This document shows positions 1-12,796 of a stretch of DNA of 12,796 bases, in pieces. A program made the translations under genes and the position numbers. Origin of the DNA: Gemmatimonadaceae bacterium (GTDB lineage Bacteria; Latescibacterota; UBA2968; UBA8231); contig PBSR01000164.1 of assembly GCA_002726335.1 (NCBI GenBank), positions 1 to 12,796 of the forward strand, read 5' to 3'. The notes beneath the pieces were generated by a model. The model ran no database searches and was not told the DNA's origin. It saw only the letters and a list, made by a program, of their open reading frames with translations. Numbering within the stretch: position 1 is the stretch's first letter; each line of letters begins with the position of its first letter.

Positions 1-686
1 TCGCCCTCCTGGATGACATCGACGAGATCTCCCACCTCGCGCAGGGCGCGGGACCAGTACTCGAGCTTGAGCCGGATGATCTTGTCGCAGAGGGCATCGG
101 CCATGGGCCGGTCGGCCGCCAGGTCGCAGTAGAAGTTGTCGAAGCCCCGCAGCCACTGCCCCATTTCCATCATTCCCGGACAGATGCCGCCGAGGACGAA
201 GGGATACCCCGCGTCGCGGATCGCCTGGGCGCGATCCCGTAACCCCTCGAAGCGGGGTTCGGCAGCCGCCTCGGGCCAGGCATAGGCGGCGATGTCCTCC
301 GGCGTGCGGGCATCGGCCAGGGGCGAGCTGCAGAGATCAAAGTAGTGGCCGTCGTCGGCGATTCGTCGGCGGGTGATTCCCCAGTCATCGGTGTAGTACT
401 CGTACTCACCCTCCACGCGAAACTCGAGACGCCATGCCGGCGGCGGCAACGGCCGGGAGCCCCGCACGTCGGTGCGCAGTCTCTCGTGGACGTCGTCGTG
501 CACCACGGCCAGCTGCTGCATGAGATGGAAGATCTCGACCTCACGCTGCGGCAGGTCCAGGGCGGTCCGCAGGTTCTGGTAGGCCACCCGGTGAATCCCG
601 GTGACCGGCGTCGATGACAGGTCGAAGGGGATACGATCGGGCTCGGTGTGGCTGAGGGCGGCGAGGAGTCGCTGGCGGGGTGTCAT
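1..686 (-). CDS. URO-D-fold (uroporphyrinogen decarboxylase-like) protein, C-terminus beyond window
   Basis: The first 228 residues are visible; the reading frame stays open to the left edge. The start at 686 begins MTPRQRLLAALSHTEPDRIP, the same opening as the divergent paralogue at 854, and has GGAG upstream in GTGGAGACCCCG. Residues 97-107 (YYTDDWGITRR) match the conserved DDWG strand of bacterial URO-D-like proteins, and residues 165-185 (VLGGICPGMMEMGQWLRGF) match the substrate-pocket region of that fold. The haem-enzyme signature around RQAGR is absent, so this is not HemE. Known members of the wider family include corrinoid methyltransferases such as MtaA and MtbA. The substrate cannot be read here, and the central [HD]-x-[CD]-G motif lies outside the window. 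It shares a 167-bp divergent control region with the plus-strand cluster. Confidence 0.88.
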   Translation of the reverse strand, partial: MTPRQRLLAALSHTEPDRIPFDLSSTPVTGIHRVAYQNLRTALDLPQREVEIFHLMQQLAVVHDDVHERLRTDVRGSRPLPPPAWRLEFRVEGEYEYYTDDWGITRRRIADDGHYFDLCSSPLADARTPEDIAAYAWPEAAAEPRFEGLRDRAQAIRDAGYPFVLGGICPGMMEMGQWLRGFDNFYCDLAADRPMADALCDKIIRLKLEYWSRALREVGDLVDVIQEG

Positions 687-853
687 CGGGGTCTCCACGG
701 GGACCGGCGTTTGAGGGCGAAACGTGGCTCAACTCTTTTCACGTAACTGCATTTCACGGTGCGGCGCGACTGCGGCCACGTCGGCAAGTGGCACGACACG
801 GCCCGTTTGCGCTTACATATACGGATGCCTCGACACCATCTCCGGAGGACCAG
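687..853. promoter_or_regulatory. Divergent intergenic control region between two URO-D-like genes
   Basis: This 167-bp gap separates two head-to-head paralogues and must hold their promoters. Visible are an AT-rich TACATAT at 814-820, about 34 bases before the plus-strand start, as a possible -10 box without a convincing -35. ACGTG at 722-726 and CACGT at 740-744 form an inverted repeat. TTTCACG occurs twice, at 737-743 and 752-758, 15 bp apart. The repeats could be an operator, but this is only a pattern. The plus-strand ribosome-binding site is GGAGG near 844. Confidence 0.4.
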
Positions 854-2128
854 ATGACCCCACGGGAGCGCATGCGTGCCCTCATCCGTCGTGAGCCCAT
901 CGACCGACTGCCCTACCAGTTCGGTGGACCCCGGGCCTCCACCTTCGCCGCCTGGCGCCTGCAGGGGCTCAGCGAAGAACAGCAGAAAAACTGGTCGCGC
1001 TTCTCCCGCGAGGACGGCATGATGGGCGTCGGCAAATTCAACACCGGCGTGTGGCCTCTGTTCGAGGAGCGCGTCATCGAGGAGCGCGGCAACCTGCGCA
1101 CCTGGGTCGACGGCTGGGGTTCGACGCGCCAGGATGCCATCGTGCAGCCGACGGCCGGCTTCGCCACGCGGCGCTGGCTCGAATTCGCTGTCAGAAACCC
1201 GGACGACTGGAAACGCGTCCGTGACCGCCTCGACCCGCACGCGCCGCAGCGCACCCGGCCCCTGACAGAAGACGAGATCACCCCCACCATGGGCCCCGAC
1301 AGCTACGGCTGGCATGCCCCTGGCGGCAACCACTGGCGCGACAGCGTCGAGACCTGCAACCGGGCCGACGTGCCGGTCCGGCTGGTGACGACGGGCATCT
1401 ACTGGGGCATCCGCGACCTGGTGGGCATGGAAAACCTGTCCGTCATGTTCTACGAACAGCCTGATCTGGTGCGCGAGATGTTCGACTACTGGGCCTGGTT
1501 CCTGATGGAGCTCCTCGACGAGGCCCTCAGCCACACCCAGGTCGACATCGTCATGCTCAACGAGGACATGGCTTTCAAGAAACAGGCCATGATGTCGCCG
1601 CCCCTGATGCGCGAGTTCCTGCTGCCCAACTATCGCAAGCTCTACGCCTTCTTCAGGGACAAGGGTGTGGGCACGCTGATCATGGACAGCGACGGCTACA
1701 ACAACCAGATCCTCGACGTCCTCTACCCCGAAGCCCTCGACGGCATTCAGCCCATCGAGATCGCCGCCGGCAATGACCCCGAAGAGATCCTGACCCGGTA
1801 CCCGGGGATCCACATCCATGGCGGCATCGACAAACGGGAGCTGCGCTTCTCGCGGGAACAGCTGCGGGCCGAGGTGGTCAAGCGCTATGACACCGCCCGT
1901 CGCCTGGGCGGTTTTATACCCCACGTCGACCACGGCGTACCGCCCGATATCCCGCTGCGCAATTTCCTCTACTTCCTGGAGCTGTCCCGAGGCTTCTGCG
2001 ACGGCGAGGACCTGGACACCTTCGAGCCCGCCTGCGAGCTGGAGCAGGAGCTCGGTCCCATCGAGCAGATGTTCGAGCCCGGCTCGGCCATCGCCGCCGC
2101 CTACGCCATGGACGAGGAGCTCGGCTGA
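854..2128 (+). CDS. URO-D-fold protein, putative corrinoid/methyltransferase relative
   Basis: 424 residues. I chose ATG 854 over the longer in-frame ATG at 680 because it has GGAGG about 6 bases upstream, its protein begins MTPRERMRALIRREPIDRLP like the divergent paralogue, and the extension would run into the promoter region and the neighbour's 5' end. Family features are WVDGWGSTR (residues 84-92), DIVMLNEDMAFK (231-242), an IMDSDGYN strand (276-283) and GGFIPHVDHGVPPD (352-365). In MtaA/MtbA-type methyltransferases the central strand carries zinc-binding H-x-C; here it is D278-S-D280-G, so that zinc site is not conserved. The HemE RQAGR motif is absent. The C-terminal 40 residues are acidic and extra. 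Its stop overlaps the next start in TGATG, implying one mRNA and translational coupling. The substrate is unknown. Confidence 0.9.
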   Translation: MTPRERMRALIRREPIDRLPYQFGGPRASTFAAWRLQGLSEEQQKNWSRFSREDGMMGVGKFNTGVWPLFEERVIEERGNLRTWVDGWGSTRQDAIVQPTAGFATRRWLEFAVRNPDDWKRVRDRLDPHAPQRTRPLTEDEITPTMGPDSYGWHAPGGNHWRDSVETCNRADVPVRLVTTGIYWGIRDLVGMENLSVMFYEQPDLVREMFDYWAWFLMELLDEALSHTQVDIVMLNEDMAFKKQAMMSPPLMREFLLPNYRKLYAFFRDKGVGTLIMDSDGYNNQILDVLYPEALDGIQPIEIAAGNDPEEILTRYPGIHIHGGIDKRELRFSREQLRAEVVKRYDTARRLGGFIPHVDHGVPPDIPLRNFLYFLELSRGFCDGEDLDTFEPACELEQELGPIEQMFEPGSAIAAAYAMDEELG

Positions 2129-3177
2129 TGGCGACGCGGATGAAGCTCGGCCTGGGGATGTATCCCCACCTGCTGACAGCCGACAACTACCGCTTCGCCC
2201 GCCAGGCCGGCGCCAGCCATGTGGTAGCCCACCTGCCCGGTTTCGCCCGGCGCGAGGGCCGTGGTCTGCCGCCGGAGCAGATGTGGACCTGTGACGAGCT
2301 GGCCGGGTTGAAGCAGGACATGAACGCCGAGGGCCTCGAGTTCGCTGCCATCGAGAACTTCGAGGTCGAGCACTGGCATGACGTGCTGCTCGACGGTCCC
2401 AGGCGGGATGAGCAGATGGCGGGGCTCAAGCAGCTGCTGCGCACCATGGGCAGCCTCGGCATCGGCGTCATGGGCTATAACTTCAGTCTTGCCAACGTCT
2501 GGGGCCGCGTTCCCGTGACGCGTGCGAGGGGCGGCGCCAGCTCGCCCGGGTACAGCCACGAGCTGGCCCCCGCCCAGGCCGAGATCCCCCACGGCATGGT
2601 CTGGAACACGGTCTACAACCCGCAGGCCCCCAGAGGCACGATCGGCCCGGTAACCGAGGAGATGATCTGGGACCGCTTCGAGCGCTTCCTGCGCGAGCTC
2701 GTGCCGGTCGCTGAAGAGTCCGGCGTGCGCCTCGCCATGCACCCTGCCGATCCACCCCTGGAGACCATCAACGGCACCCACCGGCTCATCACGAAGCCCG
2801 AACACTACCAGCGACTGCTCGACCTGGTCCCCAGCCACTGCAACGCGGCGGAATTCTGCCAGGGGACGATCGCCGAGATGGATGGTGACATGGATGTCTA
2901 CGAGGCCATCGAGACCTATGCCGGCCAGGGCAAGATCGCCTATGTGCATCTGCGCAACGTGGCGGGCAAGGTGCCCGACTACTTCGAGACCTTCATCGAC
3001 GACGGCGATGTCGACATGGTGCGCGCCCTGCGGCTGTACCACAGACACGGTTTCGAGGGCGTCATCATTCCTGATCACAGCCCGGAGATGACCTGCGCCG
3101 CCCCCTGGCATGCGGGTATGGCCTATGCCCTGGGCTGGATGCGCGGAGTCATCGCCTCCATTGAGGCGGCGGACTGA
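2128..3177 (+). CDS. Mannonate dehydratase (UxuA)-family TIM-barrel protein
   Basis: 349 residues. UxuA dehydrates D-mannonate to 2-keto-3-deoxygluconate in hexuronate breakdown, using a bound metal (Mn2+ or Fe2+). The visible metal set matches the family: His205 in MHPADPP, Cys244 in AEFCQGT, His274 in YVHLRN and Asp316 in IIPDHSP, with the adjacent catalytic His317. HPADPP replaces the usual HPDDPP, and the protein is shorter than E. coli UxuA (about 394 residues), so it may be a UxuA-like branch with another sugar-acid substrate. GAGGAG at 2114-2119 serves ATG 2128, which overlaps the previous stop (TGATG); ATG 2140 is an alternative. Being embedded among URO-D-like genes suggests that a sugar acid is handled by the whole operon (inference). 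Confidence 0.88.
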   Translation: MATRMKLGLGMYPHLLTADNYRFARQAGASHVVAHLPGFARREGRGLPPEQMWTCDELAGLKQDMNAEGLEFAAIENFEVEHWHDVLLDGPRRDEQMAGLKQLLRTMGSLGIGVMGYNFSLANVWGRVPVTRARGGASSPGYSHELAPAQAEIPHGMVWNTVYNPQAPRGTIGPVTEEMIWDRFERFLRELVPVAEESGVRLAMHPADPPLETINGTHRLITKPEHYQRLLDLVPSHCNAAEFCQGTIAEMDGDMDVYEAIETYAGQGKIAYVHLRNVAGKVPDYFETFIDDGDVDMVRALRLYHRHGFEGVIIPDHSPEMTCAAPWHAGMAYALGWMRGVIASIEAAD

Positions 3178-3305
3178 TGGACGCGGTGTCGCCCGGCATG
3201 TCGGGGGCGAGGCATCAGCCGTACCTTCTCTCCTCTGACGTTGTGCACGCCGGAGAGCCCCGGCCACCTGTCCGCGCCGATACCGTTCTGAGTGGAGACC
3301 TGTAG
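3177..3305 (+). CDS. Possible small coupled ORF, 42 residues
   Basis: The gap between the UxuA-like gene and the next URO-D gene is filled by an ORF whose ATG at 3177 overlaps the preceding TGA (TGATG). Its TAG ends two bases before the next start. It would encode 42 residues beginning MDAVSPGMSGARHQPY, with no recognised domain, signal peptide or membrane segment. Against it: it has no strong Shine-Dalgarno of its own, and open frames of this length are common by chance in GC-rich DNA. If it is not translated, the stretch is simply a 130-bp untranslated spacer; the GGAG at 3294-3297 belongs to the next gene. Confidence 0.25.
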   Translation: MDAVSPGMSGARHQPYLLSSDVVHAGEPRPPVRADTVLSGDL

Positions 3306-3307
3306 AG

Positions 3308-4360
3308 ATGGCACAGACACCCCGTGAGATCGTCACTGCCGCCCTGCGCTTCGAGGTCCCGGAGCGCCTGCCCAGGGACCTGTGGACCCTGCCCTGGGCA
3401 AACCAGCACCACCCGGAGACGGTGGCCGAGATGCACCGACGTTTTCCCTCCGATTTCGCCGGTCCCCCCGGTGTCTACCGCCCCTCGTCGCGCGTCCAGG
3501 GCGAGGCCCACACGCCGGGTCTCTTCGTCGATGACTGGGGCTGCACCTTCGTCAACATTCAGGCAGGCGTTATCGGCGAGGTCCGCGATCCCCTCGTCAC
3601 CGACATCGCCGAACTCTCCATGGTCGCGCCGCCGTATGAGACCCTGCCGGAGGACCTCGACGCGGCCCGCGATACCATCAACCGCTTCTGCGCTGACAGC
3701 GACCACTATGTACGTGCCGGCTGCTGCGCCCGACCGTGGGAGCGGTACCAGTTCCTGCGCGGCACGATGAACGCCATGATGGACATCATGCAGCCCGAGG
3801 GCGACGTCACCGATCTGCTCAACACGATTCATCAGTACTATCTGACAGAACTTGAGTTCTGGGCCAGCACCGATGTGGACGCCATCATGTTCATGGATGA
3901 TTGGGGGGCGCAGCATCAGTTGCTGATCCCACCCGTGGTCTGGCGCGACATGTTCCAACCCCTGTATCGCGACTACTGCGACCTGGCCCACACCCACGGC
4001 AAGGCCGCCTTCATGCACTCCGACGGCCACATTACCGAGATCTACGAAGGTCTGATCGAGGTCGGTGTCGACGCCCTGAACTCGCAGTTGTTCTGTATGG
4101 ACATGGCCGATCTTGCCCGTCGGGCCAAGGGGCAGATCACCTTCTGGGGCGAAATCGACCGCCAGCACGTGTTGACCAGCCCGGACCCGGAAGAGGGACG
4201 GCGTGCCGTGCGCAAGGTGGCCGAACAGCTCTACGATCCGCGGGGTGGTGTGATCGCGCAGTTCGAGTTCGGCGCCGCCGCCGAGCCGGCCACGGCCGTG
4301 GCCATCTTCGAAGAATGGGAACGCGTCGACACCGAAGCCCGCGATCTGGCCCGTGTATGA
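3308..4360 (+). CDS. URO-D-fold protein, putative methyltransferase relative
   Basis: 350 residues, close to the usual length of URO-D-fold proteins. The start has GGAG at 3294-3297. Landmarks in order are ERLPRDLW (residues 19-26), FVDDWGCTF (73-81), AIMFMDDWGAQ (192-202), AAFMHSDGHI (233-242), INVARIANT-like WGEIDRQ (280-286) and GGVIAQFEFG (313-322). The central strand is H237-S-D239-G-H241: His is kept but Cys of the zinc H-x-C motif is Asp. The late GG-x-I strand, where methyltransferases usually have the third ligand Cys, has none. A HemE role is excluded by the missing RQAGR region. It is downstream of the UxuA-like gene and overlaps the next gene by 8 nt, so it is surely co-transcribed with it. 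The substrate is unknown; methyl-group transfer or O-demethylation is the family-based guess. Confidence 0.9.
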   Translation: MAQTPREIVTAALRFEVPERLPRDLWTLPWANQHHPETVAEMHRRFPSDFAGPPGVYRPSSRVQGEAHTPGLFVDDWGCTFVNIQAGVIGEVRDPLVTDIAELSMVAPPYETLPEDLDAARDTINRFCADSDHYVRAGCCARPWERYQFLRGTMNAMMDIMQPEGDVTDLLNTIHQYYLTELEFWASTDVDAIMFMDDWGAQHQLLIPPVVWRDMFQPLYRDYCDLAHTHGKAAFMHSDGHITEIYEGLIEVGVDALNSQLFCMDMADLARRAKGQITFWGEIDRQHVLTSPDPEEGRRAVRKVAEQLYDPRGGVIAQFEFGAAAEPATAVAIFEEWERVDTEARDLARV

Positions 4361-5429
4361 GTTGAAGCCGGACTTCGAGCAGGTCCTGGACCGATTCGAA
4401 GCCTGGTGGCAGGGCGAGGTCCTCGACCGGCCCCTGGTCAGCTTCAGCTACGCCAGGCCCCCGGAGCAGCGTGTGCCAGCGCCGGTGTCGACCCACGCCA
4501 GCCTGCACGATCGCTGGCTGGATGTCGACTTCGCCGTCGACTCGGCCACCTCCCGCCTGACCAACACGATGTTCGGCGGCGACGCCCTGCCGGTGGCCTA
4601 TCCGAACCTTGGCCCCGAGGTGTTCTCGGCCTTCTACGGCTGCCCGCTGGTGTTCACCGAGACCACATCCTGGAGTGAACCCATCCTGGAAGACTGGGAC
4701 AGCGCCAGCACGTTGGCCCTGGACGCTGGCAACGAGTATTACCAGCGGATCCTGCAGATCACCGACGCCCTCCTCGAGGCCGGCCGGGATCGCTTCCTCG
4801 TCGGTTACACCGACCTGCACGGCGGCGCCGACGCCGTGGCGGCCCTGCGTGAACCGCAGCGACTGTGCATCGACATGCTCGAGCGGGCCGACGATGTGCG
4901 GGCTCTCACAGAGCGTGTGACGGTCGATTTTCTCCGCACCTACGACGTCTACCACGACAGGCTGCAGGCCGAAGGACAGCACTCCATCACCTGGTTGCCG
5001 GCCACCTGCCGCGGGCGCATGCACGTGCCATCCAACGACTTCTCCTGCATGATCTCGCAGGAGCTGTTCGAGGATCTGTTCGTCCCCGGCATCGTCCAGG
5101 AATGCCGGCACATGGATCGCTGCATCTACCATCTCGACGGCCCGGAGGCGTTGCGCTTCCTCGATCTGCTCCTGGACGTCCCGGAGATCGACGCGATTCA
5201 GTGGGTGCCTGGCGCCGGTCAGGACCGCTGGTCGGACTGGATCGACGTCTACCGCCGCGTGCAGGCCACCGGCAAGTCCTTCATTCTCTATCCACCCGTT
5301 GCGGAGCTCGACCAGGTTTTTTCCGCCCTGCGCCCCGAAGGCGCCTGGCTCGCCGTCTCCGGCATCACCGACGACGACACGGCCCGTGCCGTGATCGATG
5401 CAGTGTCTCATTGGACGGGACCGAAGTAG
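4353..5429 (+). CDS. Divergent URO-D-like protein (type sometimes labelled trimethylamine corrinoid protein 2)
   Basis: 358 residues from GTG 4353, which overlaps the previous gene by 8 nt; no ATG fits and the Shine-Dalgarno is weak, so translation probably depends on coupling. The N-terminus FEQVLDRFEAWWQGEVLDRP (residues 8-27) is typical of a URO-D-related subfamily found in multi-copy sets in Planctomycetota- and Lentisphaerae-type genomes. DLHGGADAVAALR (154-166) and CIYHLDGPEALRFLDLLL (257-274), followed by AIQWVPGAGQ (281-290), form the conserved C-terminal barrel strands. The H260-L-D262-G motif corresponds to H237-S-D239-G of the upstream paralogue. No cobalamin-binding domain is present, so it is not itself a corrinoid protein despite the common database label. 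Its substrate is unknown. Confidence 0.87.
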   Translation: MYELKPDFEQVLDRFEAWWQGEVLDRPLVSFSYARPPEQRVPAPVSTHASLHDRWLDVDFAVDSATSRLTNTMFGGDALPVAYPNLGPEVFSAFYGCPLVFTETTSWSEPILEDWDSASTLALDAGNEYYQRILQITDALLEAGRDRFLVGYTDLHGGADAVAALREPQRLCIDMLERADDVRALTERVTVDFLRTYDVYHDRLQAEGQHSITWLPATCRGRMHVPSNDFSCMISQELFEDLFVPGIVQECRHMDRCIYHLDGPEALRFLDLLLDVPEIDAIQWVPGAGQDRWSDWIDVYRRVQATGKSFILYPPVAELDQVFSALRPEGAWLAVSGITDDDTARAVIDAVSHWTGPK

Positions 5430-5536
5430 TGCAGCAGATGACGTCCGTCGAACGAACCATTGACCGCCAGCCCGTGGAGCACGGTCGGGCCCTGGGCCGA
5501 GACGCCCGTTGATCCCGTGCGCAACCGGAGGCCAGG
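5430..5536 (+). promoter_or_regulatory. Spacer with small hairpin and strong Shine-Dalgarno before the CoxG-like gene
   Basis: This 107-bp gap holds a perfect 5-bp stem, CCGTG at 5472-5476 and CACGG at 5480-5484 with loop GAG, followed by a GC-rich imperfect stem near 5485-5501. No T-run follows, so a terminator is doubtful. GGAGG at 5527-5531 sits five bases before the next ATG and fixes that start. Confidence 0.3.
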
Positions 5537-5974
5537 ATGGCACAGCTCTGCGGTGAGCTGAACCTGCCGCAGTCGCCGGCGCAGATCTGGGACAGGCTGA
5601 TCGATCCGGCCTTCCTGGCCACGTGTATGCCGCAACTGGAGAGTGTCGAGGCCGACGACTCGGCCTTCCTTGTCTGTCGCGTGCGCCCCACGCTGGCCTT
5701 CCTCAAGGGGACGATCAGGGTGACCCTCAGCCTCTACGACCGACAGCCACCTGCGTCGCTGCGAATCCGGGTCGACAGCAAGGGAATCGGCTCGACGGCC
5801 ACCGTCGAGACAACGGTCTGCCTCACCGCCCTGGACACCGGTACCCGGCTGGTGTGGACCGCCGACATCATTGAGCTGGGGGGCTTGCTCAAACCGATCG
5901 GTCGCAGCCTCATCGACGCGGCTGCCAGCAAAGTGATCGCCGAGGGCTGGGTGAGCTTCCAGCAGAAGCTCTAG
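5537..5974 (+). CDS. CoxG-like SRPBCC-family protein
   Basis: 145 residues. It fits the CoxG (CO dehydrogenase subunit G) branch of the SRPBCC/START-like fold: an N-terminal strand, then SPAQIWDRLIDPAFLATCMP (residues 13-32) as the helix-grip opening, LKGTIRVTLSLYD (56-68) and the late GTRLVWTADIIELGGLL strands, ending in a long C-terminal helix. CoxG proteins help CO dehydrogenase or related molybdenum hydroxylases associate with the membrane, but no coxL, coxM or coxS homologue is present here. A general lipid- or ligand-binding role is equally possible. It follows the URO-D cluster on the same strand after 107 bp, with its own strong GGAGG. Its stop lies four bases from the stop of the convergent acyl-CoA dehydrogenase gene, leaving no room for a separate terminator. 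Confidence 0.8.
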   Translation: MAQLCGELNLPQSPAQIWDRLIDPAFLATCMPQLESVEADDSAFLVCRVRPTLAFLKGTIRVTLSLYDRQPPASLRIRVDSKGIGSTATVETTVCLTALDTGTRLVWTADIIELGGLLKPIGRSLIDAAASKVIAEGWVSFQQKL

Positions 5975-5978
5975 TACG

Positions 5979-7151
5979 CTACGAAAAGGCTTCGTATCCC
6001 TGGCCCAGGATGCCGGCGGCAATCTTGAGTTTGAGAATCTCGTCGGTGCCCTCGTAGATGCGGCAGACACGCACGTCCTTCCAGTGCCGGCCGGGCCTGT
6101 ACAGTTCTGAATACCCCCTGCCTCCCAGGACCTGGACCGCACGGTCCGCCGCATCACAGGCGGCGTTGCTGGCAAAGAACTTGGCCTCCGCCGCCAGCAG
6201 ATCGGCCCGCTGACGGGCCTCGCGATCGACGGGGTCCTCGTCGTTGACCATCTTGGCCTTCACGGCATCGAACAGCAGACTCTGTGTGGCCTGGCGTGAG
6301 ACCTCAATGTGGGCGATGTGGTCCTGCACGAGCTGGTGTCTGGCGATCGGCTTGCCGTGCTGAGAGCGTTGGCGGGCATAGTCGACCGCCTCCTGGAGGC
6401 AATCCTCAATCACGCCGAGGCAGCCGGCAGCGACGCTCAACCGGCCGCTGCACAGAGTCGCCATGGCGATACGCCAGCCATCCCCCTCGTCGCCCAGCAG
6501 GTTGGCCACAGGCACTGCATAGTCCACCAACTCGAACATGGCTGTATCCGAGGTTGGCAGGCCGATCTTGGAGGCCAGCTCTTCACGCTCGATTCCCGGC
6601 CCGTCGGTGTCGACGATGAAGGCGCTGATGCAATCAGCCTGGTTCTCGGCGTGCGCGAAGGTCACGATCGTATCGGCGATGCTGCCGTTGGAGATCAGAT
6701 ACTTGACGCCGTTGAGCAGATACCGGTCTCCCTCCCGGCGATAGGTCATCTGCATCTGTCGCGGGTTGGACCCTGCCTCCGGTTCGGTCAGGCCGAAGGC
6801 GAGGATCGCCTCGCCGCGTGCCGACCCGGGCAGGTACTGCTGTTTCTGCGCGTCTGTACCCCAGTCGGCGATCGGTGTCTGCCCGATGGAACAATGACCG
6901 GAGAACAGGGTGCGCACACCGGTCCCCTCGCGTCCGATCCGGACCAGGGCCTGCATGTAGGTCCGTAGATCGCCGCCGCGTCCGCCGTACTCCGCCGGCA
7001 CGTGGATCCCCAGCAGATCGTGCTTTCTGGCGAGGGGGATCGTATCGTCATTGTAGCGCCCTTCCACGTAGCAGAGCTCCTCCAAAGGTCTGAGCTCCTG
7101 GCAGAACGCTTCCACATCGGCAAGTACCCCCTCACTGTCACTTCGCTCCAT
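5979..7151 (-). CDS. Acyl-CoA dehydrogenase family flavoprotein
   Basis: 390 residues, the normal length for the family, which oxidises (or in some members reduces) the alpha-beta bond of acyl-CoA thioesters with FAD. Visible are the N-terminal helical domain with IHVPAEYGGRGGDL (residues 49-62), the flavin/substrate beta-domain motif AFGLTEPEAGSNP (118-130), YLISNGSIAD (151-160), and the C-terminal helices ending in RIYEGTDEIL. Glu367 in IYEGT is the expected catalytic base. The start at 7151 has GGGAG about 5 bases upstream. It is the second gene of a minus-strand pair, 18 bp behind the CoA-transferase, so the two likely act on the same acyl-CoA. CaiA- or glutaryl-CoA-dehydrogenase-like roles are possible; substrate choice cannot be read from the sequence. 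Confidence 0.93.
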   Translation of the reverse strand: MERSDSEGVLADVEAFCQELRPLEELCYVEGRYNDDTIPLARKHDLLGIHVPAEYGGRGGDLRTYMQALVRIGREGTGVRTLFSGHCSIGQTPIADWGTDAQKQQYLPGSARGEAILAFGLTEPEAGSNPRQMQMTYRREGDRYLLNGVKYLISNGSIADTIVTFAHAENQADCISAFIVDTDGPGIEREELASKIGLPTSDTAMFELVDYAVPVANLLGDEGDGWRIAMATLCSGRLSVAAGCLGVIEDCLQEAVDYARQRSQHGKPIARHQLVQDHIAHIEVSRQATQSLLFDAVKAKMVNDEDPVDREARQRADLLAAEAKFFASNAACDAADRAVQVLGGRGYSELYRPGRHWKDVRVCRIYEGTDEILKLKIAAGILGQGYEAFS

Positions 7152-7169
7152 GTCTCTCCCACCGTTCCT

Positions 7170-8375
7170 TCACTGTATGATGCCGGCTGCGCGCAGCTGC
7201 GCCAGCCGCTCGGGGTCCAGCCCCAGCAGGTTTTCAAGCACCTGATCGGTATGTTCGCCCACCACCGGTGCCCCGGTCACCTGACCACTTCTGCCCGCCA
7301 TTCGTACCGGTGGTCCAACCGTCTCGTACGTGGTGCCGGCGCCCGTCGCCAACGTCTGCATCTCGACACCGGTCGGCGCCTCGGGTCCACCGAACAGCTC
7401 CTGCAGACCGGCCACCGGACCACACGGCACCTGCGCTGCATTCAGCTCCTCGAGCCATTCGCTCGTGCTCTTCTGCGCGAAGATCTCCTCCAGGACCGGG
7501 ATCAGCGAACCCCGGTTGGTGACCCGGTCCGGATTCGTCCTGTAGCGGACATCCGTCACCAGGTCCTGCCGGCCGATCACCTGGCACAGGCTGGCGTAGA
7601 GCTTGTCGTTGCCGGCGGCGACGGTCAGATGCCCATCGGCTGCGGCGAACACCTGATATGGTACGATCTGGGGATGTGCATTCCCCCAGCGGCGGGCAGG
7701 GGCACCACTGATGAGGTGGGCCTGGCCGACATTCACCAGGGAAGCTACGGCCGATCCCAACAGGCTGATTGAGATGTGATCACCGCGACCGGTGCGCTGG
7801 CGGGCGACGATGGCGGCCAGGATCGCGTGGGCGGCCTGCAGCCCCGCGATGACGTCCGTGATGGCCACGCCGACCTTCATGGGCGGGCCGTCCTCCTCAC
7901 CGGTGATCGCCATCAGGCCGCTCATGCCCTGGATGGCCAGGTCGTACCCCGGTCCGGGCTGATCGCCGAAAGCGGTGATCGAAGCGTGCACGATCTTCGG
8001 ATTGGCTGCCTCGATCGTCTCGGGACCCAGACCGAGACGTGGGGCGACCCCAGGTGCGAAATTCTCGATCAGCACGTCCGCCTGGCGGACCATGTCGAGC
8101 AGGAGATCGCACCCGTCCGGGTTCTGCAGATCCACACAGACCGACTGCTTGCCGCGGTTGACGGACAGGAAGTAGGCGCTGAGTCCCTGATCGGGGTCTC
8201 CCAGGTAGGGCGGCCCCCACGCACGCGTGTCATCCCCCAGAGGGGGACGTTCCACCTTGATGACGGTAGCCCCCAGATCGGCCAGCAGCATGCTGCAGTA
8301 CGGCCCCGCCAGAACGCGGGAGGCATCGAGTACGGTCAGTCCCCGCAGGGCGGGTTCGGCGCAGGGCGGGTTCAT
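7170..8375 (-). CDS. CaiB/BaiF (class III) CoA-transferase
   Basis: 401 residues. Class III enzymes move CoA between carboxylic acids through an aspartyl-CoA anhydride. Recognisable parts are LRGLTVLDASRVLAGPYCSM (residues 10-29), LADLGATVIKVERP (31-44), the small-domain entry VDLQNPDG (81-88), VLIENFAPGVAPRLGLG (101-117) and GPGYDLAIQGMSGLM (141-155). Asp145 is the expected nucleophile. The C-terminal half has the normal PCGPVAGLQELF segment and is complete. ATG 8375 is the natural start by family alignment, although no Shine-Dalgarno precedes it; TATATT lies just upstream and may be a promoter -10 of a short leader. It is first in an operon with the acyl-CoA dehydrogenase, suggesting activation of a carboxylic acid followed by alpha-beta redox chemistry. 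Confidence 0.93.
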   Translation of the reverse strand: MNPPCAEPALRGLTVLDASRVLAGPYCSMLLADLGATVIKVERPPLGDDTRAWGPPYLGDPDQGLSAYFLSVNRGKQSVCVDLQNPDGCDLLLDMVRQADVLIENFAPGVAPRLGLGPETIEAANPKIVHASITAFGDQPGPGYDLAIQGMSGLMAITGEEDGPPMKVGVAITDVIAGLQAAHAILAAIVARQRTGRGDHISISLLGSAVASLVNVGQAHLISGAPARRWGNAHPQIVPYQVFAAADGHLTVAAGNDKLYASLCQVIGRQDLVTDVRYRTNPDRVTNRGSLIPVLEEIFAQKSTSEWLEELNAAQVPCGPVAGLQELFGGPEAPTGVEMQTLATGAGTTYETVGPPVRMAGRSGQVTGAPVVGEHTDQVLENLLGLDPERLAQLRAAGIIQ

Positions 8376-8429
8376 GCGGAGAGAATATACCGAGCGATGG
8401 TTCCCCGCTTGACCCGTAGTGGATTATCC

Positions 8430-8445
8430 CCATTGTATGCAATGG
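8430..8445. repeat. Short palindrome next to the larger inverted-repeat element
   Basis: CCATTGTATGCAATGG has 6-bp arms around TATG. Its last G is the first base of the 16-bp terminal repeat of the neighbouring element. It lies 55 bases upstream of the CoA-transferase start and could be an operator or the target site of the element; neither is shown by sequence. Confidence 0.35.
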
Positions 8446-8605
8446 TGCTCTGTTAAGGAGTAGACCTTGTGAAATGAGGGCGCCGAGGAACCCGGGTCGC
8501 AAGGCGCGCGATCGAGTCGGGTCAGTGGACCCGGCGAGTGAGCGCAACGCCGCGAGCCGGGATTCATCGGTGGCCGAATACAAGGTTCGCTCCTTAACAG
8601 AGCAC
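8445..8605. repeat. 161-bp imperfect palindrome with 16-bp terminal inverted repeats (MITE-like)
   Basis: The left end GTGCTCTGTTAAGGAG (8445-8460) is repeated exactly as its reverse complement at 8590-8605. After a 3-base mismatch the arms agree again (ACCTTGT at 8464-8470 with ACAAGGT at 8580-8586). Further inside, CCGAGG-AACCC near 8483-8493 pairs imperfectly with GGGATTCATCGG at 8559-8570, and GGGTCGC pairs with GCGAGCC. The tip is CGGGTC-AGTG-GACCCG at 8518-8533. A transcript would fold into one long broken hairpin. There is no transposase and no clear target duplication (flanks CAATG and AAAGG). It fits a miniature inverted-repeat element or a large intergenic repeat. It separates the minus-strand CoA-transferase from the plus-strand PilZ gene and ends 28 bases before the PilZ start. 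Confidence 0.75.
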
Positions 8606-8633
8606 AAAGGTCAGTCACAAGGAGAGACGTTTC

Positions 8634-9020
8634 ATGGGAGAAGACCAGAGAGAATTCCCACGTTCCGCAGTTGCACCGGCGGCACGTATCCTGATCGACG
8701 ATCAGTGGCAGGAGTGTCGGGTTCTCGACCTCTCCGTCGAAGGGATCTCGCTGGAACTGGCACAGGGACTGCCGGACGGTACGCCTGTCACCATCGAGCT
8801 GGAGCACGGGGAAGTGCTGAAGAAGAACCAGGTGCAGGCTGAGGTACTGCGCTGCGGCGACCCGTCGGATGGCGCAGGTTCCGGGATGAGCAATGTAGTG
8901 CTCCGCCTGATCGAGCCGAATGATGAATACCTGATGGACGCTCTGGCCGTGGTCCACGGCGACGGCCCCAAGAAAGACAGGCGCAAGCCTGCATATGGGA
9001 AGCGAGAGGATGGAAGATAA
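8634..9020 (+). CDS. PilZ-domain protein (predicted c-di-GMP binding)
   Basis: 128 residues, essentially a single PilZ domain. The two binding signatures are present: R6-E-F-P-R10 at the N-terminus (RxxxR) and D32-L-S34-V-E-G37 (DxSxxG). They are followed by beta strands ISLELAQGL, GTPVTIELEHGEVL and the GMSNVVLRLIEP strand. Known PilZ proteins bind cyclic di-GMP and regulate motility, exopolysaccharide or transcription by protein contacts. No flagellar or cellulose gene is near, so the target is unknown. GGAGAG at 8621-8626 sits 7 bases before the ATG. The C-terminal 20 residues are basic and hydrophilic (KKDRRKPAYGKRE). It overlaps the following globin-family gene, so the pair is probably one transcript with its promoter in or beyond the palindromic element. 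Confidence 0.87.
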   Translation: MGEDQREFPRSAVAPAARILIDDQWQECRVLDLSVEGISLELAQGLPDGTPVTIELEHGEVLKKNQVQAEVLRCGDPSDGAGSGMSNVVLRLIEPNDEYLMDALAVVHGDGPKKDRRKPAYGKREDGR

Positions 9021-9321
9021 CACGCTGTTCGCGGAGATCGGAGGCAGGGCGGTTCTCGAAAAAGTCCACAAGGTGTTCTATGACGAACTCTACGCCCATC
9101 CCTGGCTGAAGAACTTCTTGAACATCACCGCGGAGCTGTTCGAGTTGAGATCCCAGATCCTGCGAAGATGTATCCTCGAGTGCGGCGTTCCAGAGGCGCT
9201 GGCAGACCGGTGGATTCGTATAGACGGTGCCTTCAAGCATTCACTGGTCAAGTCGGATATCGACCAGTGTGAGAAGCGCTATACCACCGACACAATCCTC
9301 GACTTTCCGAAACCCGGGTAG
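8995..9321 (+). CDS. Truncated-haemoglobin-family protein with apparent internal deletion
   Basis: 108 residues from ATG 8995; ATG 9010 (residue 6) is equally likely and aligns better with the family start at DNTLFAEIGG. Residues 9-42 (TLFAEIGGRAVLEKVHKVFY, then DELYAHPWLKNFL) are the A and B helices of a bacterial truncated globin, with B10-like Tyr29. Residues 44-108 (ITAELFELRSQILRRCILEC to RYTTDTILDFPKPG) match, from memory, the C-terminal half of a globin subfamily of about 135-140 residues. The roughly 35-40 residues that normally lie between, covering the E helix and the F helix with the proximal His, are missing at about nt 9118-9126, with no frame change. It may therefore not bind haem normally. 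It could be a decayed gene, a non-haem derivative or an assembly error. It overlaps the PilZ gene by 11 or 26 nt. Confidence 0.7.
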   Translation: MGSERMEDNTLFAEIGGRAVLEKVHKVFYDELYAHPWLKNFLNITAELFELRSQILRRCILECGVPEALADRWIRIDGAFKHSLVKSDIDQCEKRYTTDTILDFPKPG

Positions 9322-9331
9322 ACCGATTCGG

Positions 9332-9712
9332 TCATTGTGCCAACCTGGCACTGATAAAGAGAAACTTCAGGGGACGGCCGCCGATATTGCGGTGCTTGTG
9401 CAAAACACCGCGCGGCAGGAGCACACAGTCGCCGGGTCCCAGCCGGTACGTCTCCTCGCCCACAGTGGCCTCCATCTCGCCCTCCAGAAGATAAAAGGCC
9501 TGCTCCTGGTCGCTGTGCGCGTGGCCGTCGCCTGATTCGCCACCGACCTCGTACTCGTTGGTGTGGATCATGAGACGCTTGGTATCCAGCGCTGCCGGCC
9601 GATTCTCACGGGACGCGCCGGGCCCCATGACGACGCGGGAAATACTGCCGGGATGGCCGTGGTTCTCCGCCGGTTGCTCAAAGCAGCGCCGCACGCAGTG
9701 GGTATCGGACAT
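9332..9712 (-). CDS. Single-domain cupin protein
   Basis: 126 residues with a complete cupin metal site. Motif 1 is GDGHAHSDQEQAFYLLEG (residues 61-78), giving His64, His66 and Glu70. Motif 2 is GDCVLLPRGVLHKHRN (94-109), giving His105. Small cupins of this form bind a divalent metal and act as dioxygenases, isomerases or sugar/ligand sensors; the sequence does not say which. The start at 9712 has GGAG 8 bases upstream. It converges on the globin-family gene with only ten bases between the stop codons. GACCG-ATT-CGGTC at 9321-9333 spans that junction but lacks a T-tract. It appears to be transcribed alone, from a promoter in the 9713-9816 gap. Confidence 0.88.
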   Translation of the reverse strand: MSDTHCVRRCFEQPAENHGHPGSISRVVMGPGASRENRPAALDTKRLMIHTNEYEVGGESGDGHAHSDQEQAFYLLEGEMEATVGEETYRLGPGDCVLLPRGVLHKHRNIGGRPLKFLFISARLAQ

Positions 9713-9816
9713 GGGGCATGCTCCTTCGGTTCGGGCTTCTCAGGTGAGCTGCAGTTCTCACATTACGATGGTGTATCGGCACGCGTGAACGGAAGCATGG
9801 GTGAGTTCTCGGACTG
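9713..9816. promoter_or_regulatory. Divergent gap between cupin and sensor kinase genes
   Basis: This 104-bp stretch separates the two divergent starts. GTGAG at 9744-9748 and CTCAC at 9757-9761 form an inverted repeat around CTGCAG, a possible operator. No convincing -35/-10 pair is visible on either strand. The extent depends on the uncertain kinase start: with the alternative ATG at 9892 it would be 179 bp. Confidence 0.3.
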
Positions 9817-12796
9817 ATGATACGTGGTTTGACGTACAGACGTTGCACGACGTTAACTCTCTGTCCCTCCTCCCCTCTGCTGAATTCCGGGATGCCCCCC
9901 TGTGATGGCCTGTACTCCTTCAGGGGCGGTCAGTGGGTCTCGTACGCCGCGCTCGGAGCGGTGATCCCCAGGACCCGGAACATCCTCCAGGTGACCTCCG
10001 ATGGCTATCTGTGGATCGCGGGACTGGGGAGCGAAGCCGTTCGTCTCGACTACGCGACCGAGCGCTGGGAGTCCTACGAGGGCCTGAGCTTCCGTTGCGA
10101 GACACAGGACGGGTCGCTGTGGTTCGTTTCGGCAGATGACGAGGTCGTCAGCTTCGACGGTAGTCGATGGCTTCGGTACGGTCCTGAAGATGGACTCATG
10201 GAGCGACCCAATGCGCTTCTGGCCACCGGGATGGGCGACCTCTGGGTCGGTGGGAGTCAAGGTGGACTCGCAGCCACTGGACGACTCGAGCCGGACCGGA
10301 GTCGATGGTCTCTGGAGCTCCACCCACATGTTTCCGGAGACATTGACAATAACTCCGCTCTCCAAGACGCCGAAGGAGACCTCTGGTTTGGCGCGACCGA
10401 CGTGGCCCCCGGTCAGCTGGGAGGTCTCCTTCGATATGACGGCGCCCAATGGCGTCATTATTCCGGCGCCGAGGCACTGCTCTCGGTCTACGCGTCTGCC
10501 CAGACGCCGGATGGTCTATTGTGGTTTGGCGGGCCGTGGCTACGACGCTTCGACGGTGATCGCTGGACACTGGTCGACGAGCCGAAAGGCCTGGGTTCGT
10601 GGATTCATGACCTGCTTGTCACCAGGGAGGGGCACCTGTGGGTCGGCACTCGTTCTTACGGTGCCTATGTCTTCGACGGACAGCGATGGGCTCACTACGG
10701 CGAGGCCGACGGCCTGCGAGACAACCTCGTCAGTGGCATTCATCAACTCGACAGCGGCAGAGTTCTGGTCACCACATCTGCCGGCATCCGCGGCTTCGAC
10801 GGTCACACTTGGGTGCCGTACGCCCTGCCGTCCGATGTGGGGGTCTCTCATCGTCGGGGAAGTCTGAGTCAGAGCAGCGACGGTTCGCTGTGGATCAATC
10901 TCCGGGGACGCACCTTACGCTACGTGCCCGACGGCGATCCGCCACAGACGAGGGTCACGTTCTCACTGAGAGAGGTTTCCGCGGCTAGCAATACGAATAT
11001 CACGTGGTCTGGCTCCGATCCGTGGCAGGACACATCGACAGAGGATCTGGAATACGTCTGGCGTGTCGACGACGACCCCTGGTCTGGTTCCTCCAGAGGA
11101 ACGAGCCACCAATTCCTCTCCCTGCCCCATGGCCAGCACACCTTTGAAGTGAAGGCCAGAGACAGGGACGGCAACGAGGACCCCACCCCTGCCCTGATGC
11201 AGTTCACCGTACTGCCACCGGTGTGGCGCCAGCCCTGGTTCGTCGCCATGGTCGGCCTGTTGCTCGGGACCGCGGTCCTGCAGAGTGTCCGCGTCGTCCG
11301 GCGCAATACGGCACTGACCGCTGCCAACCACGGGCTCAACCGGGAGATCGAAGAGCGTCGGCGAGCCGAGGAAGAGCGCGCCCGGTTGGACCAGTTGCTC
11401 GAGGAACTCCGATACCTGGACAGGCTGCGCGATGCCATTGGCGGCAGGCGCACCACAGACGAAATCATCGAGCAGGCGGGCAAGGTCCTGGTCGAGATCC
11501 TGGCAACATCGACATCCGGGGGAGTGGAGATTCAGTGCGGCGGCCAGACGTGGCAGTTCGGCACGCTGGGGGCAGACCAGCATCGGTACGACCGCCCGTT
11601 GGTCTGGGGTGAACGCGAGCGGGGCCACTTCCGCCTGTACGCGGGCGTCGCCCTGAGAGAATCCCAGCAACGGGCGCTGGTGGACGAGACAACTGCACAG
11701 ATCACGCGCGCCCTGGAGTCTCAGGAGCTGATCTCCCAGCTCCTGCATTCAGCTCGACTCGTATCCCTTGGTCAGACGGCTGCAGGTGTCGCCCATGAAT
11801 TGAATCAGCCTCTCACCGCGATCTCTCTGGTCGCCCAGGACATCCACGGGCGGCTGTTGGAGGGTGAGGATCCTGGCCCCAGCCATATCAAGGCGATGAT
11901 GGCAGATATGTTGGGCTTCGTGCAGCGCATGACGGGGATCATAGGCCATCTGCGAGCCTTCTCACGGGACGCATCTGAGGAGCCTGAGCAACGGTTTGAC
12001 CTCAACACTGTAGTGCATGCCAGCCTGAAGGTGATCGGGGCGCAGTTGGACGGCCACGGAGTGCGACTCGACCTTGATCTGGCCGAGGACGTACCGCAGT
12101 TGCTTGGGCATCCCCATCAGGTTGAGCAGGTGCTGCTGAACCTTCTGGCGAACGCTCGCGATGCCGTCGATGAGCGACACGCCGACACCCTGGATGCTGA
12201 CAGGTGTGTCCGGGTCCGCACCGGGTGTCATTCGGGTGACCGGTCCACTGCGGTACTGGAGGTCGAGGACAACGGCCCGGGCATGGACGCATCGCAGGCA
12301 GAGAGGATCTTTGAGCCCTTCTTCACGACGAAGGGTGCCGAGCGCGGTACGGGCCTGGGATTATCCATCTCGAACGCGATCGTCATCAATCACGGCGGGT
12401 TGCAGGGCTGGTGGTCGGAACGCTTCTACGAGGAATGTTTGCTGCTCGCCGCCAGCCACGACAACATCTATCTCGAATGCGGCTTCTATTGGGCCGAGCT
12501 TTATGAAAAGCCGCTGTTGGATCCCAACATCGGCGCCGAGAAACTCTTGTGGGCCACCGATTGGGACGCCTCCATCCCGTTCCATTCCCAGCCCGGCCAT
12601 TATCCGTCCAGCTATCCGGTGCAGAAACGGTCCGAACCCTTGCCCCGCCATCAGGTGGATATGTGGGGCTGGAGCCTGAAGCAGCTCTTGAAGGTGCAGT
12701 GTACCCAGGATGATCTGAACCTGATCCTCGGCGGCAACGCGGCGCGCATCTATAAACTGGAAGTGCCGCACACGCGCCTGTTCCGCCCGATCGGCA
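9817..12796 (+). CDS. Beta-propeller sensor histidine kinase, joined in frame to an amidohydrolase C-terminus; open at right edge
   Basis: About 993 residues from ATG 9817; ATG 9892 is an alternative, and neither has a good Shine-Dalgarno or signal peptide. An in-frame TGA at 9802 bounds it. Residues about 30-385 are regulator-propeller repeats, with seven D/E-G-x-LW motifs such as DGYLWIAG, EGDLWFGA and EGHLWVGT, and many FDG-x-x-W strands. A Y_Y_Y-like domain (about 395-470) leads to a membrane helix (about 474-492) and a coiled coil (NREIEERRRAEEERARLDQL). After a GAF-like stretch come the H box AHELNQPL (His660), the N box NLLANARDAV, G1 DNGPGMD (818), the F box FEPFFTTK (832) and G2 GTGLGL (844). 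This is a standard periplasm-sensing kinase, probably for carbohydrates. After HGG (859-861) the ATPase's last strands are missing and an amidohydrolase sequence follows. No receiver domain or response regulator is visible. Confidence 0.82.
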   Translation, partial: MIRGLTYRRCTTLTLCPSSPLLNSGMPPCDGLYSFRGGQWVSYAALGAVIPRTRNILQVTSDGYLWIAGLGSEAVRLDYATERWESYEGLSFRCETQDGSLWFVSADDEVVSFDGSRWLRYGPEDGLMERPNALLATGMGDLWVGGSQGGLAATGRLEPDRSRWSLELHPHVSGDIDNNSALQDAEGDLWFGATDVAPGQLGGLLRYDGAQWRHYSGAEALLSVYASAQTPDGLLWFGGPWLRRFDGDRWTLVDEPKGLGSWIHDLLVTREGHLWVGTRSYGAYVFDGQRWAHYGEADGLRDNLVSGIHQLDSGRVLVTTSAGIRGFDGHTWVPYALPSDVGVSHRRGSLSQSSDGSLWINLRGRTLRYVPDGDPPQTRVTFSLREVSAASNTNITWSGSDPWQDTSTEDLEYVWRVDDDPWSGSSRGTSHQFLSLPHGQHTFEVKARDRDGNEDPTPALMQFTVLPPVWRQPWFVAMVGLLLGTAVLQSVRVVRRNTALTAANHGLNREIEERRRAEEERARLDQLLEELRYLDRLRDAIGGRRTTDEIIEQAGKVLVEILATSTSGGVEIQCGGQTWQFGTLGADQHRYDRPLVWGERERGHFRLYAGVALRESQQRALVDETTAQITRALESQELISQLLHSARLVSLGQTAAGVAHELNQPLTAISLVAQDIHGRLLEGEDPGPSHIKAMMADMLGFVQRMTGIIGHLRAFSRDASEEPEQRFDLNTVVHASLKVIGAQLDGHGVRLDLDLAEDVPQLLGHPHQVEQVLLNLLANARDAVDERHADTLDADRCVRVRTGCHSGDRSTAVLEVEDNGPGMDASQAERIFEPFFTTKGAERGTGLGLSISNAIVINHGGLQGWWSERFYEECLLLAASHDNIYLECGFYWAELYEKPLLDPNIGAEKLLWATDWDASIPFHSQPGHYPSSYPVQKRSEPLPRHQVDMWGWSLKQLLKVQCTQDDLNLILGGNAARIYKLEVPHTRLFRPIG
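12397..12796 (+). other. Amidohydrolase-2-type C-terminal fragment fused after the kinase ATPase domain
   Basis: From about residue 862 of the fused frame the sequence reads as the distal half of a TIM-barrel metal-dependent amidohydrolase (ACMSD/amidohydrolase-2 type): WWSERFYEECLLLAASHDNI, then GFYWAELYEKPLLDPNIGAE, LLWATDWDAS with the expected metal-site Asp915, HQVDMWGWSLKQLLK, and NLILGGNAARIYKL near the C-terminus. The N-terminal half with the HxH metal motif is absent. Codon use changes: by my count Tyr is TAT in 6 of 7 codons here, against TAC in 14 of 18 in the kinase part. The end of the gene lies beyond the window. It may derive from another locus or another genome. Confidence 0.72.

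Follow-up and report, generated by a model that had tools for sequence, protein, structure and literature searches.

Near the right-hand end of the 12,796-nt stretch of DNA analyzed here (the window), a frame at 9817-12795 on the plus strand begins as a sensor histidine kinase and ends as an amidohydrolase. Does this frame represent a gene, or do two genes from different organisms meet in it? The fusion, if true, would be an unusual hybrid of a signaling protein and an enzyme. Otherwise the case matters as a caution: when a chimera at the end of a contig stays in frame, it can be mistaken for a novel multidomain protein and in that form enter the databases.

Domain content of the open frame

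The frame is unbroken and stays open to the end of the window. Pfam kinase domains extend to residue 861 and are followed by Amidohydro_2 (PF04909) without any frame break, which confirms the in-frame switch from kinase to amidohydrolase that had been proposed from the sequence alone (the original prediction). The kinase part (9817-12376, plus strand) comprises a Reg_prop propeller, Y_Y_Y, HisKA and HATPase_c. The Y_Y_Y match lies under its own Pfam cut-off, and HisKA, at residues 651-718, reaches 23.8 bits where the cut-off is 26.9. HATPase_c covers residues 765-861 with 63 bits (E 4.2e-17). With a phospho-acceptor histidine domain, albeit one below the cut-off, and an ATPase domain present through the G2 box, the left part has the make-up of a sensor histidine kinase. 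The HATPase_c match spans positions 2-89 of the 111 in the profile, and the intact kinase described below has 24 residues of its own more, in agreement with the predicted absence of the final ATPase strands.

The amidohydrolase part (12377-12796, plus strand) matches positions 174-289 of the 289 in the Amidohydro_2 profile. Within the whole fused protein the match scores 24.6 bits (E 2.5e-5) against a cut-off of 26.4, and 12394-12795 scanned by itself gives 26.4 bits, just at the cut-off. Two residues of the later half of Amidohydro_2, a histidine (codon at 12391) and an aspartate (codon at 12559), are the same in all 120 hydrolase relatives listed; we take them to be metal ligands. The N-terminus of the hydrolase was correctly predicted to be absent. 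The piece begins at residue 206 of its closest protein relative, P0001, in which an HxH motif stands at residue 11. The same motif, presumably the metal binder of Amidohydro_2, occurs within the first 60 residues of 113 of the 120 hydrolase matches listed.

Elsewhere in the window, a cluster at 680-5429 encodes two URO-D-like proteins (680-2128 and 3308-4360), a UxuA-like TIM-barrel protein (2128-3177) and a 358-aa protein lacking a Pfam match (4353-5429). A minus-strand frame at 3-698, searched by NCBIfam scan only, had no match and runs off the left end of the window. A CoxG-like protein, an acyl-CoA dehydrogenase and a class III CoA-transferase adjoin one another at 5537-8375. Scans of the window with Rfam, at the gathering threshold, and for tRNAs were empty and offered no explanation linked to an RNA or a tRNA.

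The intact parent genes

The kinase was searched with residues 1-862 as query; the 7996 candidates sharing the most words were scored, yielding 4341 matches, of which 120 were listed. One of them, P0121 (885 aa), equals the window's protein over residues 1-861 (100% identity), i.e., up to position 12399. After residue 861, P0121 continues with RIECESVPGAGSTFRVFLPTVREA, in place of the window's LQGWWSERF... The tail of P0121 resembles those of its relatives; of the 120 matches listed, 71 fit a roughly defined pattern of a normal kinase ending. Its cluster at 90% identity comprises eight member sequences, 12 contigs (the longest of 93,966 bp) and five source labels. PF04909 was found in none of the 120 kinase matches listed. 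Named relatives at 32-47% identity come from Candidatus Handelsmanbacteria, Latescibacterota, Oleiharenicola and a Planctomycetaceae bacterium. Scanning viral contigs for relatives of P0121 gave one pattern match, which was not confirmed.

For the hydrolase, residues 249-380 of the translation of window positions 11656-12795 served as query, and proteins of ordinary hydrolase length were admitted as candidates. Among 378 candidates there were 335 matches; the 120 listed are 215-389 aa long and carry PF04909. The best protein match, P0001 (362 aa), is 99% identical across the entire piece, with one difference in the 139 residues from 206 to 344. A genome scan with the hydrolase returned 19 pattern matches, three of which encode a relative, and a viral contig scan for relatives of the piece gave two pattern matches, neither confirmed.

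At the DNA level, the parent was found in L001 (NZAK01000152.1, MAG: Rhodospirillaceae bacterium isolate ARS31), whose protein is 99% identical to the hydrolase piece. Window positions 12377-12796 equal L001:5984-6403 with a single mismatch (at 12566) in 420 bp, i.e., 99.76% identity. The match sits inside an uninterrupted hydrolase ORF (L001:5335-6459), 56 nt of which lie beyond the end of the window. Directly to the left of 12377, identity to L001 over 420 bases falls to 27%, about chance level. Intact, near-identical parents were thus found on both sides of the join, as a protein for the kinase (P0121) and as both DNA (L001) and protein (P0001) for the hydrolase. The mismatch places an aspartate at codon 12565-12567, where L001 and all 120 relatives listed have glycine in the alignment. 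A regular expression for the residue after TDW had found glycine in 77 of the 120 and no match in 43, and the alignment was used instead. The aspartate is probably a sequencing or contig-tip error.

In L001:1-12402, the donor hydrolase neighbors ORFs that resemble hydrolases by eye (e.g., 2283-3317, minus strand), and an ORF at 6466-7827 resembles a CoA ligase by eye.

The donor genome G001, which holds L001, gave no DNA match to window positions 9817-12376, and a control search of the same genome with 12300-12796 returned a match that begins at 12377 and reaches the end. Of 31 protein matches to P0121 in this genome, the best shares 36% identity over residues 610-881; these 31 are ordinary other kinases.

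The join

The switch lies within 12377-12402. Its left limit is set by the donor, whose DNA identity begins at 12377, and its right limit by P0121, which first differs from the window at residue 862 (arginine in P0121, leucine in the window; codon 12400-12402). The junction first proposed, 12391-12412, overlaps this zone. The tripeptide HGG, which had been suspected to occur in both parents, does so as part of a longer stretch, IVINHGG, which is present in both intact proteins and whose codons occupy 12379-12399 in the window. Most of that stretch is covered by a 22-nt word, 12377-12398, and the kinase parent's DNA probably carries the same word, of up to 22-23 nt, as deduced from its protein. 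The longest word common to window positions 1-12376 and L001 has 14 nt, compared to up to 22 nt at the join. IVINHGG occurs in one of the 120 hydrolase matches listed, P0001, and in one of the 120 kinase matches listed, P0121. The join therefore falls on the one listed pair that shares this stretch, which suggests that a shared word guided the joining.

Composition across the join

Codon usage had been predicted to change at the join. Tyrosine codons indeed flip from TAC (15 of 19 on the left, where 14 of 18 had been counted before) to TAT (6/7 on the right), and aspartate shifts from GAC (46/63) to GAT (5/7). The shift is not general. Glutamine is mostly CAG on the left (32/39) and entirely so on the right (7/7), and histidine codons are mixed on both sides (CAC in 11 of 26 and 3 of 6, respectively). 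The shift is nonetheless more than chance, because the right part is nearly identical over its 420 bp to a gene of another organism. A comparison of 4-mers, proposed along with the prediction, gave the right part +4.4 nats towards the donor, and all 29 chunks from the left (window 1-12180) were negative (-31.0 to -6.7). Its support is weak, as all but one of the 14 chunks taken from the left flank of the donor (-0.1 to 36.4) outscore the right part.

Search for fused proteins

Homologous fusions were sought among proteins about as long as the fused one (0.55 to 1.75 times 993 aa). None of the 98 candidates that had words in common with the hydrolase piece matched at E <= 0.001, in a search without a positive control, as the window's own fused ORF was not returned either. 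The junction protein was also compared with genomes of the donor's class, 142 of them, sampled evenly from a larger set; in the larger genomes only 21 first-look candidates were scored. At E <= 1e-20, one of the 142 matched, the donor itself, over residues 71-210, i.e., the hydrolase part only. A literature search on kinase-amidohydrolase fusions found no such title among those listed, which does not prove their absence.

Origin of the fused frame

The fused ORF is, almost certainly, neither a real gene nor a biological feature. It is very probably the chimeric end of a contig, in which an assembler joined a kinase gene and an alphaproteobacterial amidohydrolase gene at a word, about 22 nt long, that both would contain. 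A metagenome assembler would have been following the kinase gene of one bacterium and, through that word, would have crossed over to an alphaproteobacterium and its amidohydrolase gene; the contig or window would end 420 bases further on. We infer that the joining was done by the assembler and that the window end is the contig end. No fused protein would then exist; the native kinase would end ...AIVINHGGRIECESVPGAGSTFRVFLPTVREA, and the native hydrolase would be the full 362-aa Amidohydro_2 protein. Only the final 420 bases of the window are foreign, and they contain the aspartate for glycine, as an error at a weak tip would give. The explanation offered at the outset, recombination or misassembly through microhomology, is supported by the recovery of both parents in intact form and by the position of the join within the IVINHGG stretch, at most 22-23 nt long. 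ARS31 presumably belongs to the Tara Oceans draft-genome set, judging by its contig naming. The report on those draft genomes states that samples were assembled by Megahit (preset meta-sensitive) and then by Minimus2 (PMC5769542). Chimeric nodes are described in another study as stretches common to two species where de Bruijn assemblers may cross and create chimeric contigs (PMC8171044).

A chimera could also have arisen earlier, in the library, by amplification or template switching at a short shared word, and have been retained by the assembler as a contig tip. The foreign part, just 420 bp at the window end, agrees with such an origin, and an error-bearing, low-coverage tip might carry an aspartate where the 120 listed relatives have glycine. 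This is unlikely, however: a junction at IVINHGG, about 22 nt long and present in one of 120 listed matches per side, fits a graph walk, and random ligation would not need a shared word.

Biological explanations are less probable still. A genuine, very recent recombination between distant bacteria, leaving a minority strain with an in-frame but broken kinase and broken hydrolase, is very improbable. A plausible microhomology is present and the frame is kept over the join, but the frame would be kept automatically if the same word stood in the same frame in both genes. The event would also require 99.76% identity to an apparently distant donor (Rhodospirillaceae, as opposed to kinase relatives that include Handelsmanbacteria and Latescibacterota), and an intact kinase of identical sequence exists. 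The evidence favors misassembly over biological recombination. A functional kinase-amidohydrolase fusion enzyme can hardly be credited at all. The open frame is uninterrupted, but the protein is short of 24 residues at the end of the kinase and of 205 at the start of the hydrolase, the HxH among them, and has aspartate in place of the invariant glycine of the listed relatives. The idea of a real, novel fusion in the original prediction is not supported: the same 861 residues occur in an intact kinase, and no fusion homologue appeared in the length range searched, again without a positive control.

Comparison with known systems

Compared to the Reg_prop two-component sensor histidine kinase P0121, the window has 861 identical residues and is without the last 24. 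Compared to the Amidohydro_2 protein P0001 and the L001 gene, it has 139 residues with one difference, lacks 205 residues at the N-terminus, and stops at the window end 18 residues short of the end of P0001. The arrangement would be like that of the interspecies chimeric contigs described in PMC8171044, where two organisms meet at a common stretch and each continues separately elsewhere. Unlike the evolutionarily similar species treated there, the genes that meet in this window are unrelated, and the part they have in common would be only about 22 nt.
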